From Massilibacillus massiliensis (GTDB taxonomy: Bacteria > Bacillota > Negativicutes > FLKF01), in the NCBI RefSeq assembly GCF_900086705.1, contig NZ_LT575483.1, positions 2,077,894 to 2,141,893 on the forward strand: a stretch of DNA of 64,000 nt, read 5' to 3'. Positions 55,563-64,000 of the stretch are shown piece by piece. The notes under the pieces were generated by a model, which did no database searches, had not been told where the DNA came from, and worked only from the letters and a program-made list of their open reading frames with translations. Numbering within the stretch: the first letter of the stretch is position 1; every line of letters starts with the position of its first letter. Position numbers and translations under genes: made by a program.

Positions 55563-56363
55563 CTACAGTATTGTTTCTTCGATTGGATCGACTTCAATGA
55601 TTTCAATACCCTTGCTGCGGAGTCGGGCAAGTTCTTGTTTATCGGCGTCTTTATTTGTAATGATTGTAGATACTTTATCTAAGGATCCGCTCATAAAATT
55701 GTGCTGCCGACCAATTTTTGAACTGCCTGCCAAGATAAAACAAGGTCCGATGCAGCGTTTTAACATCATTTCATTGATCGGCGTTTCTTGTAAGACTGAT
55801 GTTGTGATGCCGCCGCGTACGCTAATGCCGCCAACGCCGATAAAAGTTTTGTTGGCGGTGATTTTATTTAATGTATGCATGGCAAATTCACCAACCATGG
55901 ATTGTTTTCTTTCGTAAATTTCGCCACCTGTTAATACCAGCTCTACGCGTGGATCTTTTTCTGCGACGATCGCGTTTCCATTGTTGGTAATAACGATGAC
56001 ATGTTTATTTTTTAAATACTTAAGAAGTAGCAATGCAGTTGAACTTGAATTCATAAAGATGGTGTCTCCATCATCAATCAGAGAGGCCGCATATTTGGCA
56101 ATGGCGTGTTTTTGAGAGATTTTTTTTGGTGATAGGGTATCTGGAGCAGGATCTTCTTTTAGATTGCCCTCTACGAGTTTTGCTCCGCCGTGAAATCTTT
56201 TCACGATGTTCTGTTGTTCAAAAATTTGCAAGTCGCGGCGGATCGTCGTTGGTGAAATTTTTAACTTCTCCGCTAATTCGTCAACTTGAACAGTTTGTTT
56301 CTCTTTTAAACATTTTAAAATATATTGTTGGCGTTTATAGACAACACCTTTGCTGTTTTTCAT
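55563..56363 (-). CDS. DeoR-family repressor, probable ascorbate-operon regulator
   Basis: A 266-residue DeoR-type protein. The N-terminal helix-turn-helix (about 5-55) has RQQYILKCLKEKQTVQVDELAE and ISPTTIRRDLQ. The C-terminal sugar-phosphate domain (about 75-250) contains DDGDTIFMNSSSTALLL and FIGVGGISVRGGITTS. I choose ATG 56363; the upstream ATGs at 56396 and 56375 either lack or overlap the AAAGGA ribosome site. It is divergent from ulaG and resembles UlaR in position and type. It most likely represses both directions until an ascorbate-derived phosphate is bound. Confidence 0.88.
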   Translation of the reverse strand: MKNSKGVVYKRQQYILKCLKEKQTVQVDELAEKLKISPTTIRRDLQIFEQQNIVKRFHGGAKLVEGNLKEDPAPDTLSPKKISQKHAIAKYAASLIDDGDTIFMNSSSTALLLLKYLKNKHVIVITNNGNAIVAEKDPRVELVLTGGEIYERKQSMVGEFAMHTLNKITANKTFIGVGGISVRGGITTSVLQETPINEMMLKRCIGPCFILAGSSKIGRQHNFMSGSLDKVSTIITNKDADKQELARLRSKGIEIIEVDPIEETIL

Positions 56364-56415
56364 AAGAATGTTCATTCCTTTCAAAAGACGTATCATGATT
56401 TATTTTGATAATTAA

Positions 56416-56708: not shown

Positions 56709-57773
56709 ATGAGTAAAGTTAAAGAGATTAGCAGAGAATCATGGATTTTAAGCACATTTCCTGAATGGGGTACTTGGCTGAATGAAGAGATAGAGCAAGA
56801 AGTTGTAGTCCCTGGAACGTTTGCAATGTGGTGGTTAGGCTGTACTGGTATTTGGATGAAATCTGAAGGTAATGCAAATATTTGCATTGATTTTTGGTGC
56901 GGCAGTGGTAAAAGGACAAAGGCAAAACCTAATATGGATCCGCAGCATCAAATGGCTAGAATGTGCGGCGGCAAAAAGCTGCAACCGAATTTAAGAGTAG
57001 CGCCATTTGTACTTGATCCGTTTGCGATTCGGCAGATTGATGCAGTTTTGTCTACCCATTATCATAATGATCATATTGATGTAAATGTAGCGGCCGCTGT
57101 TATGCAAAACTGCGCGGAAGATGTTCCTTTTATTGGGCCTAAATATTGTGTAGAAAAATGGATGGAATGGGGTGTTCCGGCAGAACGGTGCATTACGGTT
57201 AAACCTGGTGATGTAATAAAAATAAAAGATATGGAAATTTTGGCGTTGGAATCTTTTGATCGTACCGCATTGATTACAGCACCACCCGAAGGAGCATTAA
57301 AAGGCTGGCTACCGGATGATATGGATGAAAAAGCAGTTAATTACCTTGTCAAAACGCCGGGGGGAAATCTTTATCATAGTGGCGATTCCCACTATTCTAA
57401 TTACTATGCAAAACATGGCAATGAACATAAGATTGATGTTGCCTTAGGTTCATATGGGGAAAATCCGCGTGGTATAACAGATAAAATGACGGCTTCCGAT
57501 ATTCTGCGGATGGGGGAATCGTTAAACACACAAGTCGTAATTCCGTTCCATCATGATATATGGGCTAACTTTCAGGCAGATCCGGCAGAAATTACGACTT
57601 TATATGAAATGAAGAAACATCGTCTGCAATATAAATTTAAACCATTTATTTGGCAAGTTGGCGGAAAATTTGTGTTTCCGGCAGATAAAGATAAGCGTGA
57701 GTATCACTATCCAAGAGGATTTGAAGATTGTTTCACAAAAGACATTAATCTTCCATTTACAAGCTTTTTATAA
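56709..57773 (+). CDS. ulaG: L-ascorbate-6-phosphate lactonase UlaG
   Basis: Opens the lactone ring of L-ascorbate 6-phosphate, the product of PTS uptake. The 354-residue protein is nearly the enterobacterial UlaG throughout: [13 protein letters not shown] at the start, the metallo-beta-lactamase motif HYHNDHID (about 117-124), [16 protein letters not shown] and [15 protein letters not shown]. Length is the same. GGAGG precedes the ATG. It is the first gene of the operon and divergent from the repressor. Confidence 0.97.
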
Positions 57774-57911: not shown

Positions 57912-58346
57912 ATGTTTCAAAACTTAATTCAAAAGAAAAGATGTTGTTTTCATAAAGGGTTTAAAAATTGGGAAGATGCTGTAAGAGCCGCTTGCCTGCC
58001 TTTACTTATAGATCAAACCATTGAACCGGAGTATCCGGATGCAATTATTGAAAAAGTAAAAGAGCTCGGTCCGTATATTGTCATTGCTCCTAAAATCTGT
58101 ATTCCACATGCACAAGAAGGCGTGGGTGTAAATGATACGGCAGTTTGTTTTATGAAAACAGAGGAACCAATTCATTTTAGTGATGATCCGGATCATGATG
58201 CACAATTGTTTTTCGTATTGGCATCGGTTGATAATGGAGAGCACTTAGAAAATCTTTGCGAGTTGTCCGAATTGTTATCTGATGAAACGGTTGTAGAAAA
58301 GTTATTGGCAGCAAAATCCATAGAAGATTTAAAAGAGTTACCGTAA
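57912..58346 (+). CDS. ulaC: PTS ascorbate transporter EIIA component UlaC
   Basis: A 144-residue EIIA of the mannitol/fructose fold. The phosphorylated histidine is in ICIPHAQEGVGVNDTAV. It carries phosphate from HPr to UlaB. GAGGGG lies before the ATG. The 138-base gap after ulaG contains no gene. Confidence 0.88.
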   Translation: MFQNLIQKKRCCFHKGFKNWEDAVRAACLPLLIDQTIEPEYPDAIIEKVKELGPYIVIAPKICIPHAQEGVGVNDTAVCFMKTEEPIHFSDDPDHDAQLFFVLASVDNGEHLENLCELSELLSDETVVEKLLAAKSIEDLKELP

Positions 58347-58402: not shown

Positions 58403-59860
58403 ATGGAATTTTTGATGAGCATCTGGGAGTTTTTCCAAAATAATGTATTGACAAAACCGCAATTTTTTGTTGGCTTGATTGTATTTATTGGATATTTATT
58501 ATTGCAAAGACCAATTTATGAAGCTTTGGCTGGATTTATTAAAGCCGTAGTTGGTTATATGATTTTGATGGTAGCATCCGGTGGACTGGTCGGCAATTTC
58601 CGTCCAGTACTCGCGGGATTGAAGGATCGTTTTGATTTATCTGCAGCTGTGATTGATCCATATTTTGGACAAGCCGCCGCACAAGCTTCTGTCGAAAGTG
58701 TCGGGCGCTCATTTTCTATGATGATGTTAGTTTTATTAATCGCCTTTATGTTTAATTTACTGCTTGTTTTGTTTAGAAAATATACGAAAATTCGAACTTT
58801 GTTTATCACCGGACACGTTATGGTACAGCAGTCGTCTACTGCTTTATGGTTAGTCCTCTTTTGTTTTCCACAGCTACAGGATATCGGTGTTGTAGCTATG
58901 TTGGGGATTTTGCTTGGTGCGTATTGGTCCGTTGCATCGAATCTCACGGTCGAACCTTGTCAAAAGCTGACGGAAGGCGGCGGATTTGCAACGGGACATC
59001 AACAAATGTTTGGCATTTGGTTTGTATCAAAGATTGCTGGAAAAATCGGCGATAAAAAGAAGTCAATTGAAAGTTTAAAACTGCCGGGATTTTTGTCGAT
59101 CTTCAATGAAAATGTTGTAGCAACTGGTATTTTAATGCTTGTGTTTTTTGGGGCAATTATCACGATTTTAGGCCCGGATTTAATGCATAAAATTGATAAG
59201 AGTTTTAGTAAAGAGCAAAATTTTGCGTTTTATATTGTGGAAAAATCCTTTAATTTCGCAGTGTTTTTAACAATCTTGCAATTGGGCGTTAGGATGTTCG
59301 TATCGGAATTGACGGAATCTTTTCAGGGTATTTCTAATAAAATTTTACCGGGATCTATGCCAGCGGTGGACTGTGCGGCAACCTATGGATTTGGACATCC
59401 AAATGCGATAACGCTTGGTTTCTTGTGCGGTGCACTTGGCCAATTTACCGCCATTATCGGATTGCTCGTTTTCCAAAGTCCTATCCTTATTATCAGCGGA
59501 TTCGTGCCGTTATTTTTTGATAATGCAACGTTTGCAGTATTTGCGAATCGCTTAGGCGGAATTAAAGCAACTGTCATTATTACTTATTTTTCTGGAATTA
59601 CACAGGTGCTTGGCGGCGCTTTTGCCGCGTACTTCTTTATGACCGGTAAATTTGGCGGCTGGCATGGAAATTTTGACTGGGATACGGTTTGGCCGCTATT
59701 TGGCGTGATTATGAATTATGGCCAATATATTGGTGTTGCTGCAATCGTCATCGTCTTATTGATGATTCCGCAAATTTTGTATCGGCAAAATAAAGAGACC
59801 TATTTCTTGATTGCAGAAGACTATGATAAATATCTCGAGGTTAAAGGTGAAAAAGCGTAA
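58403..59860 (+). CDS. ulaA: PTS ascorbate transporter EIIC component UlaA
   Basis: The 485-residue membrane transporter that takes up L-ascorbate with phosphorylation. About eleven hydrophobic segments are present. KAVVGYMILMVASGGLVGNFRPVLAGL, the central STALWLVLFCFPQ and MPAVDCAATYGFGHPNAITLGF are typical UlaA stretches. AGGAGG precedes the ATG. It ends 48 bases before the EIIB gene. Confidence 0.95.
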   Translation: MEFLMSIWEFFQNNVLTKPQFFVGLIVFIGYLLLQRPIYEALAGFIKAVVGYMILMVASGGLVGNFRPVLAGLKDRFDLSAAVIDPYFGQAAAQASVESVGRSFSMMMLVLLIAFMFNLLLVLFRKYTKIRTLFITGHVMVQQSSTALWLVLFCFPQLQDIGVVAMLGILLGAYWSVASNLTVEPCQKLTEGGGFATGHQQMFGIWFVSKIAGKIGDKKKSIESLKLPGFLSIFNENVVATGILMLVFFGAIITILGPDLMHKIDKSFSKEQNFAFYIVEKSFNFAVFLTILQLGVRMFVSELTESFQGISNKILPGSMPAVDCAATYGFGHPNAITLGFLCGALGQFTAIIGLLVFQSPILIISGFVPLFFDNATFAVFANRLGGIKATVIITYFSGITQVLGGAFAAYFFMTGKFGGWHGNFDWDTVWPLFGVIMNYGQYIGVAAIVIVLLMIPQILYRQNKETYFLIAEDYDKYLEVKGEKA

Positions 59861-59908
59861 AGATTCGTTCTACATATTGATATTGTAAATAAAAATGGGG
59901 TGTGCATG

Positions 59909-60199
59909 ATGTTAAAAGTGATTGCTGCATGTGGCAGTGGTATGGGATCAAGTCAGATTATTAAAATGAAGCTAGAAAAAGTATTTAAAAAGCTTGGTAT
60001 CGACGCTAGTATTTATCATACAAATGTTGGCGACGCAAAATCTCAGGCAGGAAACTATGATGTTGTTGTTTGTTCGGAGTCTCTCCTTGGGACATTTACA
60101 AATGCAGCAGCAAAGGGAATTACGGTTATTGGGCTTAAAAATTTATTATCAGAAAAAGAAATCGAGGAAAAAGTTACAGAGCAGATTGTGAATAAATAG
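59909..60199 (+). CDS. ulaB: PTS ascorbate transporter EIIB component UlaB
   Basis: A 96-residue EIIB with the phosphorylated cysteine in the loop AACGSGMGSSQIIKMK (C about 8-9). The fold is the short ascorbate/galactitol type. Starts at ATG 59906 or 59909 both fit GGGG at 59897; I take the second. Confidence 0.93.
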   Translation: MLKVIAACGSGMGSSQIIKMKLEKVFKKLGIDASIYHTNVGDAKSQAGNYDVVVCSESLLGTFTNAAAKGITVIGLKNLLSEKEIEEKVTEQIVNK

Positions 60200-60254: not shown

Positions 60255-61283
60255 ATGAAAATTGAGAAGAAGTTTTTAACGAAATTGCATCGTTGTTACG
60301 CGACAAGCAGTACTGTAATAGATGGCGAAGAAAAAATTTTGCTGGCGACGGAGGGTGAGGGCTCTTGTTATATGTACGCAGGGCCGGAATTTAAACAGTC
60401 TACGGTATGGGACGGGCCAGGGGGGACAATGTCGATGGTCGCTGTTCCCGGGAAAAATGGAGATTTTTTAGCCGTGCAAAATTTTTTCCCAACGTTTCAA
60501 TCGGAGAATGCTACGATTGTCTGGGCAAGCCCAAAAGCCAATGACACATGGGAGATAAAAACTTTATTTAAGCTTCCTTATGTGCATAGATTTGATATCC
60601 TAACGGCCAATGGTGTCCATTATTTTATTGGCTGTACACTTTGTACGAGTAAAACCGATAAAGAGGATTGGTCAGATCCGGGGAAAATCTATGTCGGTCT
60701 TATTCCAGATGATTTGAATCAGCCCATTACACTTAAGGTGATTCAGGAAGGCCTGACGAAGAATCATGGGTATAGCCGCGTGCAATGGCAAGGAAAGATG
60801 GTAGGCATGGTGACTTGTGAGGAAGGTGTTTTTGTCGTTACACCACCGCAGCAAGTCGGTGAAGACTGGAAGGTCGAAATGCTCCTAGATCGCCCTGTCA
60901 GTGATATCGCAGTCGTTGATATAGATGGTGATGGTGTGGATGAATTGGTGACGATTGAACCGTTTCATGGCAATCAGTTTTTAATTAACAAAAAGACTGT
61001 AGATGGATATCAAGTTGTGTATCAATATCCGGAGGAAATGGAATTTGGCCATGTTGTTTGGGGTGGTTCACTGAGAGGCGTACCAACGATTATCGGAGGC
61101 CAAAGAAGGCATGCGAAAGATCTATTTTATATTCAATATAAAGATGGTACGTATGTAAAAACAACGATTGAAACAGAGATAGGCCCTAGTAATGTTGCGG
61201 TGATACATGAGCAGGAACGGGATATTATTATTTCTGCAAATCGTGAAATCGGCGAGGCTGTTTTATATTTGGTAACGGATTGA
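60255..61283 (+). CDS. Cytosolic beta-propeller-like protein in the ula operon
   Basis: A 342-residue protein without signal peptide, so probably cytosolic. I recognise repeated beta-strand blades of the FG-GAP/VCBS kind, best seen in VSDIAVVDIDGDGVDELVTIEP (about 215-236), where DxDxDG can bind calcium, and in HVVWGGSLRG, VAVIHEQERDIIISANREIG and similar pieces. No catalytic signature is clear. GGAGTG precedes the ATG; 55 bases separate it from ulaB and 25 from ulaF. In the E. coli system this place has ulaD, absent here. The function is unknown: an accessory enzyme or sensor in ascorbate use is possible. Confidence 0.65.
   Translation: MKIEKKFLTKLHRCYATSSTVIDGEEKILLATEGEGSCYMYAGPEFKQSTVWDGPGGTMSMVAVPGKNGDFLAVQNFFPTFQSENATIVWASPKANDTWEIKTLFKLPYVHRFDILTANGVHYFIGCTLCTSKTDKEDWSDPGKIYVGLIPDDLNQPITLKVIQEGLTKNHGYSRVQWQGKMVGMVTCEEGVFVVTPPQQVGEDWKVEMLLDRPVSDIAVVDIDGDGVDELVTIEPFHGNQFLINKKTVDGYQVVYQYPEEMEFGHVVWGGSLRGVPTIIGGQRRHAKDLFYIQYKDGTYVKTTIETEIGPSNVAVIHEQERDIIISANREIGEAVLYLVTD
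60445..60454 (+). promoter_or_regulatory. Noc-site-like core TTCCCGGGAA
   Basis: TTCCCGGGAA followed by AAA inside the propeller gene, the third copy of this core in the window. Confidence 0.3.
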
Positions 61284-61308: not shown

Positions 61309-62001
61309 ATGTTAGAAGATTTAAAACAAAAAGTATATGAAGCGAATATGTTGCTGCCTAAATATGGTCTGATCACTTTTACATGGGGAAACGTTTCTGC
61401 GATTGATCGTCAAAACGGTCTGTTTGTGATAAAGCCTTCCGGGGTTGAATACGATAAAATGCAGGCGAGTGATATGGTGGTTGTGGATCTTACTGGTAAA
61501 GTGATAGAGGGGGATTTGAAACCGTCTTCTGATACACCGACCCATTTAAAGCTCTATCAGGAATTTCAAAATATTGGCGGTATTGTACATACGCATTCGC
61601 GTTGGGCAACTGTATTTGCACAGGCGGGCAGGTCTATTCATGCATATGGAACTACACAGGCGGATTATTTTTACGGTGAAATTCCTTGTACAGCAGATAT
61701 GCCGAAAGAGGCTGTTGAAGGTGCTTATGAATATAATACCGGCAGGATCATCGTAGATACATTTAAAAATATCAATCCGGATTATATGCCGGCGGTATTG
61801 GTAAAAAATCATGGACCCTTTGTTTGGGGAGCCGATGCCTTTGAGGCGGTGCATAATGCTGTTGTGCTTGAAGAAGTTGCCATGATGGCCTTTAATACAG
61901 AGCGGTTGGGGCAAGGAAGCGTAGAGCATATGCCAAAGGTATTGCTGGATAAACATTTTTTGCGCAAGCACGGTCCGAAAGCATATTACGGACAAAAATA
62001 A
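61309..62001 (+). CDS. ulaF: L-ribulose-5-phosphate 4-epimerase UlaF
   Basis: A class II aldolase-fold epimerase making D-xylulose 5-phosphate. The 230-residue protein has metal ligands in [14 protein letters not shown] (His-x-His) and [11 protein letters not shown]; Asp in [11 protein letters not shown] and Tyr near the C-terminus complete the site. The length and motifs fit AraD/UlaF; the ula context decides for UlaF. Confidence 0.93.
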
Positions 62002-62070: not shown

Positions 62071-62101
62071 TACTAAGTTTTGAGAAAGAGCGTGATCAAT
62101 G

Positions 62102-62947
62102 ATGAAACAATATATGCTTGGGTTATATGAAAAAGCAATGCCTCCTAATTTATCGTGGAAGGAGAAATTACAGGAGGCAAAAAAGGCAGGGTTTGATTTT
62201 TTAGAAATGAGCATCGATGAAACGGATGAGAAGTTGTCCCGTCTAGAAATGCCCAAATCTGAACGACGACGAATTTGCGACTCTATGGATGAAATCGGCA
62301 TCCCGATCCGGAGCATTTGTTTAAGTGGACATCGCAAATATCCATTAGGCAGCCAAGATGTTAAAATTCGTGAGAGAAGCTTAGAAATTATGGAGAAAGC
62401 GATAGATCTTGCTTGTGATTTAGGCGTACGAATTATTCAACTGGCTGGGTATGATGTCTACTACGAGGAATCCTCCAAAGAAACGAGGTTGATGTTTGAG
62501 CAAAATCTTGCAAAATGTGCATGTATGGCGGCTAAAAAAGGCGTGCTGCTAGGTTTTGAAACAATGGAAACAGAGTTTATGAACACAGTGGAGAAAGCAA
62601 TTGCTTATGTTGGAAAAATAAATTCGCCATATCTTCAAATCTATCCAGATGCCGGAAATCTTACAAATGCCGCTGTCTTATATGAAAAAAATGTAGTTGC
62701 TGATATGAAAGGCGGCGCAGGACATATTGTTGCTTGCCATTTAAAGGAAACTGTCCCGGGGAAATTCAGAGAAATTCCGTTTGGAACAGGACATGTAAAT
62801 TTTAAAACAGTGATTGATACGACTTGGAAACTCGGGGTGAGAATTTATGTAGCGGAGTTTTGGTATACAGGCAGTACAAGCTGGCAGGATGATTTGAAAC
62901 ATGCAAATCAGTTTATCTCGGTAAATTTTACTGATAAAAATTCTTAA
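62102..62947 (+). CDS. ulaE: L-ribulose-5-phosphate (L-xylulose-5-phosphate) 3-epimerase UlaE
   Basis: A TIM-barrel epimerase of about 281 residues acting before UlaF. GLYEKAMPPNLSWKEKL at the start, DFLEMSIDETDEKLSRL, ICLSGHRKYPLGS and FREIPFGTGHVNF are UlaE/SgaU signatures. Glu and His metal ligands are in those stretches. It can begin at ATG 62099 or 62102; ribosome site is weak in both cases. Confidence 0.94.
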   Translation: MKQYMLGLYEKAMPPNLSWKEKLQEAKKAGFDFLEMSIDETDEKLSRLEMPKSERRRICDSMDEIGIPIRSICLSGHRKYPLGSQDVKIRERSLEIMEKAIDLACDLGVRIIQLAGYDVYYEESSKETRLMFEQNLAKCACMAAKKGVLLGFETMETEFMNTVEKAIAYVGKINSPYLQIYPDAGNLTNAAVLYEKNVVADMKGGAGHIVACHLKETVPGKFREIPFGTGHVNFKTVIDTTWKLGVRIYVAEFWYTGSTSWQDDLKHANQFISVNFTDKNS

Positions 62948-63040
62948 ATAAGGATTGCATACAAGGTAAAAATGTAGTATTTATATAGAGAGAAGGACAA
63001 AGTAATGTAGATTAAATTTTTTACTAAAAGGATGAGTGAT

Positions 63041-64000
63041 TTGAGTAAAGTTAAAAAAATTGGGGTCCTAACAAGTGGCGGAGATTCGCCGGGAATGAAT
63101 GCAGTTGTTCGAGCTGTCGTAAGAAGCGCAAATGAATTTGGTTTAGAAGTTATAGGAATTCGGCGTGGTTATAATGGATTGATGAATGGTGATTTTGTCG
63201 AATTGGACAATCGTTCTGTTGGCGATATTATACAACGTGGCGGTACGATGCTTTATACTGCACGATGCTTGGAATTTATAGAACTCGCGGGTCAAAAACA
63301 AGGGTATGAGACCGCAAAAAAGGTTGGCATTGATGGAATCGTTGTAGTTGGCGGGGATGGTTCTTTCCGCGGCGCTGCTGCGTTAAGTAAATTAGGCATT
63401 CCTACAGTGGGAATTCCGGGGACGATTGATAATGATATTGCTTGTACGGATTACTCCATCGGGTTTGATACTGCTTGCAATATTGCAATGGAAGCGGTGG
63501 ACAGGCTTAGAGACACTACGCAGAGTCATGAAAAGTGCAGTATCGTAGAAGTTATGGGACGGCATGCTGGGCATTTGGCACTGAATGTTGGCGTTGCAAC
63601 AGGTGCAACTACGGTCTTGATTCCCGAGAAGGAATACGATATAAAGAAAGATGTTTCTGATAAAATTTTGGCTGCGCAAAAATCAGGAAAAACACATCAC
63701 ATTATTATCGTTGCTGAAGGTTGTAAAGATTCAGTTGCAGAAATTGCGAAGCAAATTGAGGCCGATACTGGAATCTGCTCGCGTTTGACTGTGCTTGGAC
63801 ATATCCAGCGTGGCGGAGCGCCGACTGTATTTGACCGTGTAAATGCAACGAAGATGGGCTATCATGCGGTTGAATTGTTAAAAGAAGGGATCGGTAATCG
63901 ATTGGTGTCAATTAAAGATGATCACGTTGTAGATTTTTCAATCGAAGAAGGTTTGGCAATGAAAAAGACAATCGATGAAAAATTGTACAATGTTTGTCGT
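63041..64000 (+). CDS. pfkA: ATP-dependent 6-phosphofructokinase, 3' end at window edge
   Basis: Phosphorylates fructose 6-phosphate in glycolysis. IGVLTSGGDSPGMNAVVRAVVRS opens the chain; VVVGGDGSFRGAAAL has Gly rather than Asp after GGD, the mark of ATP- rather than pyrophosphate-dependent enzymes. GTIDNDIACTDYSIGFDTA contains the catalytic Asp, and MGRHAGHLAL and HIQRGGAPT bind substrate. The start is TTG 63041, eight bases after AAAGGATG. The frame is open to the last base, 320 codons, so only the end is missing. Confidence 0.95.
   Translation, partial: MSKVKKIGVLTSGGDSPGMNAVVRAVVRSANEFGLEVIGIRRGYNGLMNGDFVELDNRSVGDIIQRGGTMLYTARCLEFIELAGQKQGYETAKKVGIDGIVVVGGDGSFRGAAALSKLGIPTVGIPGTIDNDIACTDYSIGFDTACNIAMEAVDRLRDTTQSHEKCSIVEVMGRHAGHLALNVGVATGATTVLIPEKEYDIKKDVSDKILAAQKSGKTHHIIIVAEGCKDSVAEIAKQIEADTGICSRLTVLGHIQRGGAPTVFDRVNATKMGYHAVELLKEGIGNRLVSIKDDHVVDFSIEEGLAMKKTIDEKLYNVCR

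Follow-up and report, generated by a model that had tools for sequence, protein, structure and literature searches.

A cytosolic beta-propeller protein as the likely replacement of the decarboxylase UlaD in ascorbate operons of Negativicutes

Introduction

The E. coli ula operon for L-ascorbate utilisation combines PTS uptake, the lactonase UlaG, the decarboxylase UlaD, and the epimerases UlaE and UlaF. UlaD, about 215 aa long, folds as a (beta/alpha)8 barrel; its substrate, 3-keto-L-gulonate 6-phosphate, is a beta-keto acid that the enzyme decarboxylates through a Mg-stabilised enediolate. A UlaD paralogue, SgbH, belongs to the E. coli yiaK-S operon, which has the gene order yiaK-L-...-lyxK-sgbH-sgbU-sgbE and also encodes YiaMNO.

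We know of no beta-propeller decarboxylase, and the open-licence papers that we searched yielded neither one nor any FG-GAP, VCBS or propeller protein linked to ula genes or to this decarboxylase. Aldos-2-ulose dehydratase (AUDH) is a keto-sugar lyase whose propeller binds a metal; in Claesson et al. 2012 (J Mol Biol 417:279), this metal is reported to be a catalytic zinc by which the keto group of the sugar is polarised. AUDH has been named as a seven-bladed VCBS propeller (PMC8023676, which cites that study). A survey of the UlaG family reported ulaABCDEF in all cases examined, subject to rearrangements, insertions and losses particular to individual species, and mentions no propeller for the decarboxylation step (PMC3219644). 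Here we describe an ula operon in which a cytosolic seven-bladed FG-GAP/VCBS propeller very likely takes the place of UlaD, judging by sequence, predicted structure and genomic context.

Results

An ascorbate operon without ulaD

The 64-kb stretch of DNA analysed here (the window) contains the complete PTS, UlaG, UlaE and UlaF set of an L-ascorbate utilisation operon, in the order deoR (divergent), ulaG, IIA, IIC, IIB, propeller, ulaF, ulaE and then pfkA (Table 1). Family cut-offs bore out the names UlaG, UlaC, UlaA, UlaB, UlaF and UlaE given to these neighbours in an earlier, sequence-only reading, with the small correction that ulaF precedes ulaE. Where the E. coli operon has ulaD, the window operon has the propeller gene instead. 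Regulators 51-76% identical to the DeoR-type regulator of the window stand upstream of ulaG in relatives. The neighbour pfkA is also kept after ulaE in Massilibacillus and Propionispira operons, and transaldolase- or transketolase-like genes occupy its position in some Clostridium operons.

Table 1 Features of the ascorbate operon and its flanks in the window
Feature	Position	Strand	Evidence
DeoR-family regulator, divergent, UlaR-like position	55563..56396	-	family profile searches
ulaG, L-ascorbate-6-phosphate lactonase	56709..57773	+	NF008688, 669 bits vs equivalog cut-off 306
PTS IIA (ulaC-like)	57912..58346	+	PTS family match
PTS IIC (ulaA)	58403..59860	+	PF03611; NF006919 (ascorbate IIC), 389.7 vs cut-off 380
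PTS IIB (ulaB)	59900..60199	+	PTS family match
Propeller gene (FG-GAP protein, 342 aa)	60255..61283	+	ORF confirmed at exact coordinates
DxDxDG loop (DIDGDG, residues 222-227), blade 5 of propeller, FG-GAP/VCBS cation-loop motif	60918..60935	+	
ulaF, L-ribulose-5-phosphate 4-epimerase	61309..62001	+	NF006047, 379.6 vs 257 (subfamily cut-off)
ulaE, L-xylulose/L-ribulose-5-phosphate 3-epimerase	62099..62947	+	TIGR00542, 310 vs 272; NF009689, 365.7 vs 200
pfkA (6-phosphofructokinase), directly after ulaE	63032..64000	+	

The absence of ulaD, first remarked on for the window, extends to the whole 4.0-Mb, 98%-complete genome. Searches with PF00215 (the OMPDC family) returned PyrF as their single match, the UlaD model NF009832 reached only 20 bits, to the pyrF gene itself, and E. 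coli UlaD as a query found no match, which rules out an ordinary ulaD elsewhere in the genome. Neither PF00215 nor NF009832 found an OMPDC signature in the propeller protein, and UlaD and the propeller have no relation in sequence or fold.

A confidently predicted seven-bladed propeller with one conserved face

The propeller protein begins without an apparent signal sequence and is cytosolic. FG-GAP-like blades and a DxDxDG loop had been noticed in it before; in Pfam, PF01839 (FG-GAP) matches a single stretch, residues 216-239, with a score of 23.2 bits (cut-off 22.1), and the DIDGDG loop (D222-G227) falls inside it. Among the NCBIfam models the protein has no match. An AlphaFold2 model built from 10 sequences, the window protein and its relatives, is all beta and confident (pLDDT 87.7, pTM 0.86), with 28 strands in seven blades and an N-terminal strand that closes blade 7. 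The window protein thus combines the FG-GAP/VCBS signature, DxDxDG loop included, with a predicted seven-bladed fold.

Among 41 propeller sequences, with pairwise identity down to 28%, 40 positions are invariant, and 28 of these lie in loops or strand ends of the DA/BC-loop (top) face (p 6e-5). They include H111, H171, H238, H266, E33, D217, N170, R284 and N329, and R112 follows immediately after H111 in the sequence. Such conservation of one face is enzyme-like and resembles that of an active site. D222, D226 and G227 of the DxDxDG loop are also invariant in the 41 sequences; in the model this loop lies on the opposite face, where it is probably a structural cation site.

Structural comparison with AUDH

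Searches of PDB sequences with phmmer and hmmsearch found no solved structure homologous in sequence to the propeller, AUDH chains included; matches to kaptin (E 1.3) were set aside as reflecting the generic FG-GAP motif. By structure, the best VIA-align match to the predicted fold is the AUDH propeller (PDB 4a7k/4a7y/4a7z; the similar region is 4a7k residues 20-434), with Z 33.9 over 332 of 342 residues at 2.7 A and 14% identity, although LGI1 (Z 30.8) is not far below; WD40 proteins follow with Z 26-28. Foldseek E-values ranked the LGI1 EPTP propeller first, and AUDH came first only after re-ranking with VIA-align. Both AUDH and, by prediction, the window protein are seven-bladed VCBS-type propellers. 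They differ in that AUDH carries cupin and lectin domains, whereas the window protein is a single domain with neither; the fungal enzyme dehydrates unphosphorylated sugars, whereas the window protein would decarboxylate a sugar phosphate. The parallel is one of predicted fold and does not prove function.

The propeller and UlaD exclude each other in the genomes sampled

We sought UlaG in 380 Negativicutes genomes and then UlaD and the propeller in the 51 that were positive. Forty-four of these carry the propeller and lack UlaD, three have UlaD (>300 bits, within the ula operon) and lack the propeller, and none has both. The remaining four have neither; their UlaG is divergent and no ulaE or ulaF lies nearby, and on these grounds we did not count them as exceptions. 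Incomplete assemblies do not account for the absence of UlaD, as genomes at least 90% complete show the same pattern. HPS-like paralogues in G163 and G164 were considered as hidden UlaD and rejected, the strongest (G164, 133 bits) scoring as a 3-hexulose-6-phosphate synthase (276 against a cut-off of 200).

In an even sample of the phylum (398 genomes), eight genomes exceeded the UlaG cut-off, six with the propeller (three of them shared with the Negativicutes sample) and two with UlaD. The presence of UlaD in these two, G617 and G625, had been predicted before the search from the absence of the propeller, and it was found in both. UlaD-bearing genomes are few in our sampling, five plus E. coli.

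When all 380 Negativicutes genomes were scanned for the propeller, 53 had it, namely 44 of 51 with UlaG and 9 of 329 without (Fisher p 5e-41, genomes taken as independent although they are not). In most of the nine, the propeller still lies beside ulaE or ulaF; these cases comprise contig-end fragments, an ula operon in which no UlaG was found (G277), decaying operons (G258 and G274) and a yia-like operon (G003). In G258 (L117:7980-9593), the 5' part of ulaG runs into the 3' part of the propeller gene, followed by ulaF, and in G274 (L077:7474-8717) a propeller fragment and ulaF remain. A cluster of IIA, UlaG, IIB and IIC in G155 (L067:6400-9550) has no ulaD, ulaE, ulaF or propeller; its UlaG has diverged (51% to E. 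coli), so that the cluster may act on a different substrate.

Genomic context and repeated exchange

Across 58 distinct propeller loci, ulaE and/or ulaF stand within 3 kb in 49, ulaG in the absence of ulaE and ulaF in four more, and ulaD in none. The other five are without ula neighbours; two of these are at contig ends, and three (G117, G292 and G118) are true orphan genes. The G118 propeller adjoins a split transketolase, a 2-hydroxyacid dehydrogenase and an MFS transporter. Propeller paralogues with this set of genes occur at L115:1837-9441 (G118) and L055:8152-15163 (G035) and possibly serve a related keto-hexonate phosphate pathway. Massilibacillus, Propionispira, Megamonas and Clostridium have close relatives of the propeller (70-83%), every one of them in an ula operon that lacks ulaD. 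The propeller-bearing operon usually has a DeoR or PRD regulator next to it, and we found no relatives of the propeller on plasmids or viral contigs. In one Megamonas operon (G293, L052:5482-12903; the same region as L012, Megamonas sp. UBA1796), a corrinoid methyltransferase module of two URO-D/MtaA-like proteins, a corrinoid protein, DUF1638 and a RACo-like reductive activase lies between ulaG and the propeller, which suggests O-demethylation of a methylated ascorbate-like substrate ahead of catabolism.

Three genomes (G004, G119 and G305) have a PTS-ulaE-ulaF operon with the same enzyme types as the UlaD-bearing G015, G011 and G324; they lack ulaD, however, and have the propeller next to ulaG or close to it. 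In swapped operons UlaG is 77-82% identical to that of the window, whether UlaD or the propeller accompanies it. A quick UlaG tree shows the two states interleaved, requiring at least four changes, and because one well-supported clade of closely related UlaG mixes four UlaD and four propeller operons, one was probably exchanged for the other on more than one occasion.

A second substitution, in yia-like operons

Two loci without UlaG, G164:C4 and one in G003, place the propeller in a different operon, ordered PanE-like dehydrogenase, yiaL, MFS, TIM barrel, lyxK homologue, propeller, and ulaF with ulaE. The last two occur in either order across the two loci, and G003 has a regulator between the lyxK homologue and the propeller. 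This layout corresponds to that of E. coli yiaK-S, with which it shares YiaL and a kinase of the LyxK type (34-37% identity to LyxK), while MFS transport and a PanE-like dehydrogenase are found where E. coli has YiaMNO and YiaK; the propeller occupies the place of SgbH. The ula and yia-like pathways share only the segment from 3-keto-L-gulonate 6-phosphate to D-xylulose 5-phosphate, and the same UlaD/SgbH substitution is therefore seen in two pathways.

Discussion

The contextual evidence linking the propeller to UlaD is strong. The two share an operon slot and flanking enzymes and have a strictly complementary distribution in the genomes sampled, and we propose the same reaction for both. As 44 of the 51 UlaG-bearing genomes carry the propeller without UlaD and none carries both, the propeller is not incidental cargo. 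The sequence-only reading had coupled the propeller to the missing ulaD, a pairing that holds up, with no ulaD elsewhere in the genome and the propeller almost always beside ulaE, ulaF or ulaG. It had also offered an accessory enzyme, a sensor or the cargo of a variant pathway as roles; the tie to the pathway stands, whereas the missing decarboxylase is indicated by two facts, that no sampled genome has both UlaD and the propeller and that the propeller takes over from SgbH in yia-like operons. Its statement that 3-keto-L-gulonate 6-phosphate has no route to L-xylulose 5-phosphate is accordingly probably wrong.

In the pathway as we picture it, UlaG would make 3-keto-L-gulonate 6-phosphate from PTS-imported L-ascorbate 6-phosphate, the propeller would decarboxylate it to L-xylulose 5-phosphate, and UlaE and UlaF would then convert this to D-xylulose 5-phosphate. 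The substrate may bind the top face of the propeller, where some of H111, H171, H238, H266, E33, D217, N170 and N329 could hold a divalent metal acting on the C3 keto group as a Lewis acid. With the departure of CO2 from C2, an enediolate would form that the metal stabilises and a nearby acid reprotonates; the invariant or near-invariant R112, R284, K169 and R330 are candidates for binding the carboxylate and phosphate. Because AUDH, the nearest structural relative, performs metal-assisted lyase chemistry on keto sugars, a metal-bearing propeller face is plausible, by analogy, as a second solution to the chemistry of UlaD.

The propeller might instead act at a neighbouring step such as epimerisation, mutarotation or a second lactone opening, with decarboxylation left to another enzyme or proceeding spontaneously, as beta-keto acids can decarboxylate unaided; SMP-30-type propellers are lactonases, and the Foldseek matches include one propeller lactonase (7ris). 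We regard this as quite unlikely. UlaG, UlaE and UlaF are all present above family cut-offs, so that no other pathway step is vacant, and the genomes that have UlaD are precisely those that have lost the propeller. The similarity of UlaG in UlaD and propeller operons, in turn, implies the same upstream chemistry. A purely regulatory or scaffolding part, as a sensor or accessory protein of the pathway, would also account for the operon linkage and would suit a fold that often serves as a binding scaffold, in operons that a DeoR or PRD regulator usually adjoins. It is nevertheless very improbable: none of the 44 Negativicutes genomes with the propeller and no UlaD would then have the decarboxylase, both the mutual exclusion and the SgbH substitution would go unexplained, the operons already have regulators, and the conserved face looks like an active site.

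Another possibility concerns the substrate. The names UlaG, UlaE and UlaF come from homology, and the operon could handle a compound related to ascorbate, with the propeller decarboxylating or otherwise cleaving another keto-hexonate phosphate; the corrinoid methyltransferase module in the G293 operon and the transketolase and 2-hydroxyacid dehydrogenase genes beside the G118 propeller point that way. This too seems unlikely to us for the window, where both UlaG and IIC are recognised by ascorbate equivalogs; in sister genomes, true UlaD is found together with UlaG and PTS genes closely related to these. Decarboxylation of 3-keto-L-gulonate 6-phosphate by the propeller remains much the likeliest reading, given that it and UlaD exclude each other and that it replaces SgbH.

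The propeller likely defines a new family, the first beta-propeller decarboxylase and a non-homologous isofunctional replacement of UlaD/SgbH, with a metal site that it would in principle have in common with the AUDH propeller and a wide distribution in Negativicutes, some Clostridium and other Bacillota. If so, decarboxylation of the same beta-keto acid arose independently on a TIM barrel and on a beta-propeller, and the natural swaps in otherwise very similar operons would be a clean and directly assayable case of non-orthologous gene displacement. Cytosolic sugar-phosphate enzymes would then be found among the FG-GAP/VCBS propellers, a group usually regarded as binding scaffolds. The proposal gives a specific, testable reaction to an uncharacterised propeller family without an NCBIfam model. 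The locus encodes a variant of the ascorbate pathway resting on a probably new enzyme family, one that would fill a hole in the fermentation of vitamin C by common gut and environmental anaerobes such as Propionispira, Megamonas, Clostridium and their sampled relatives.
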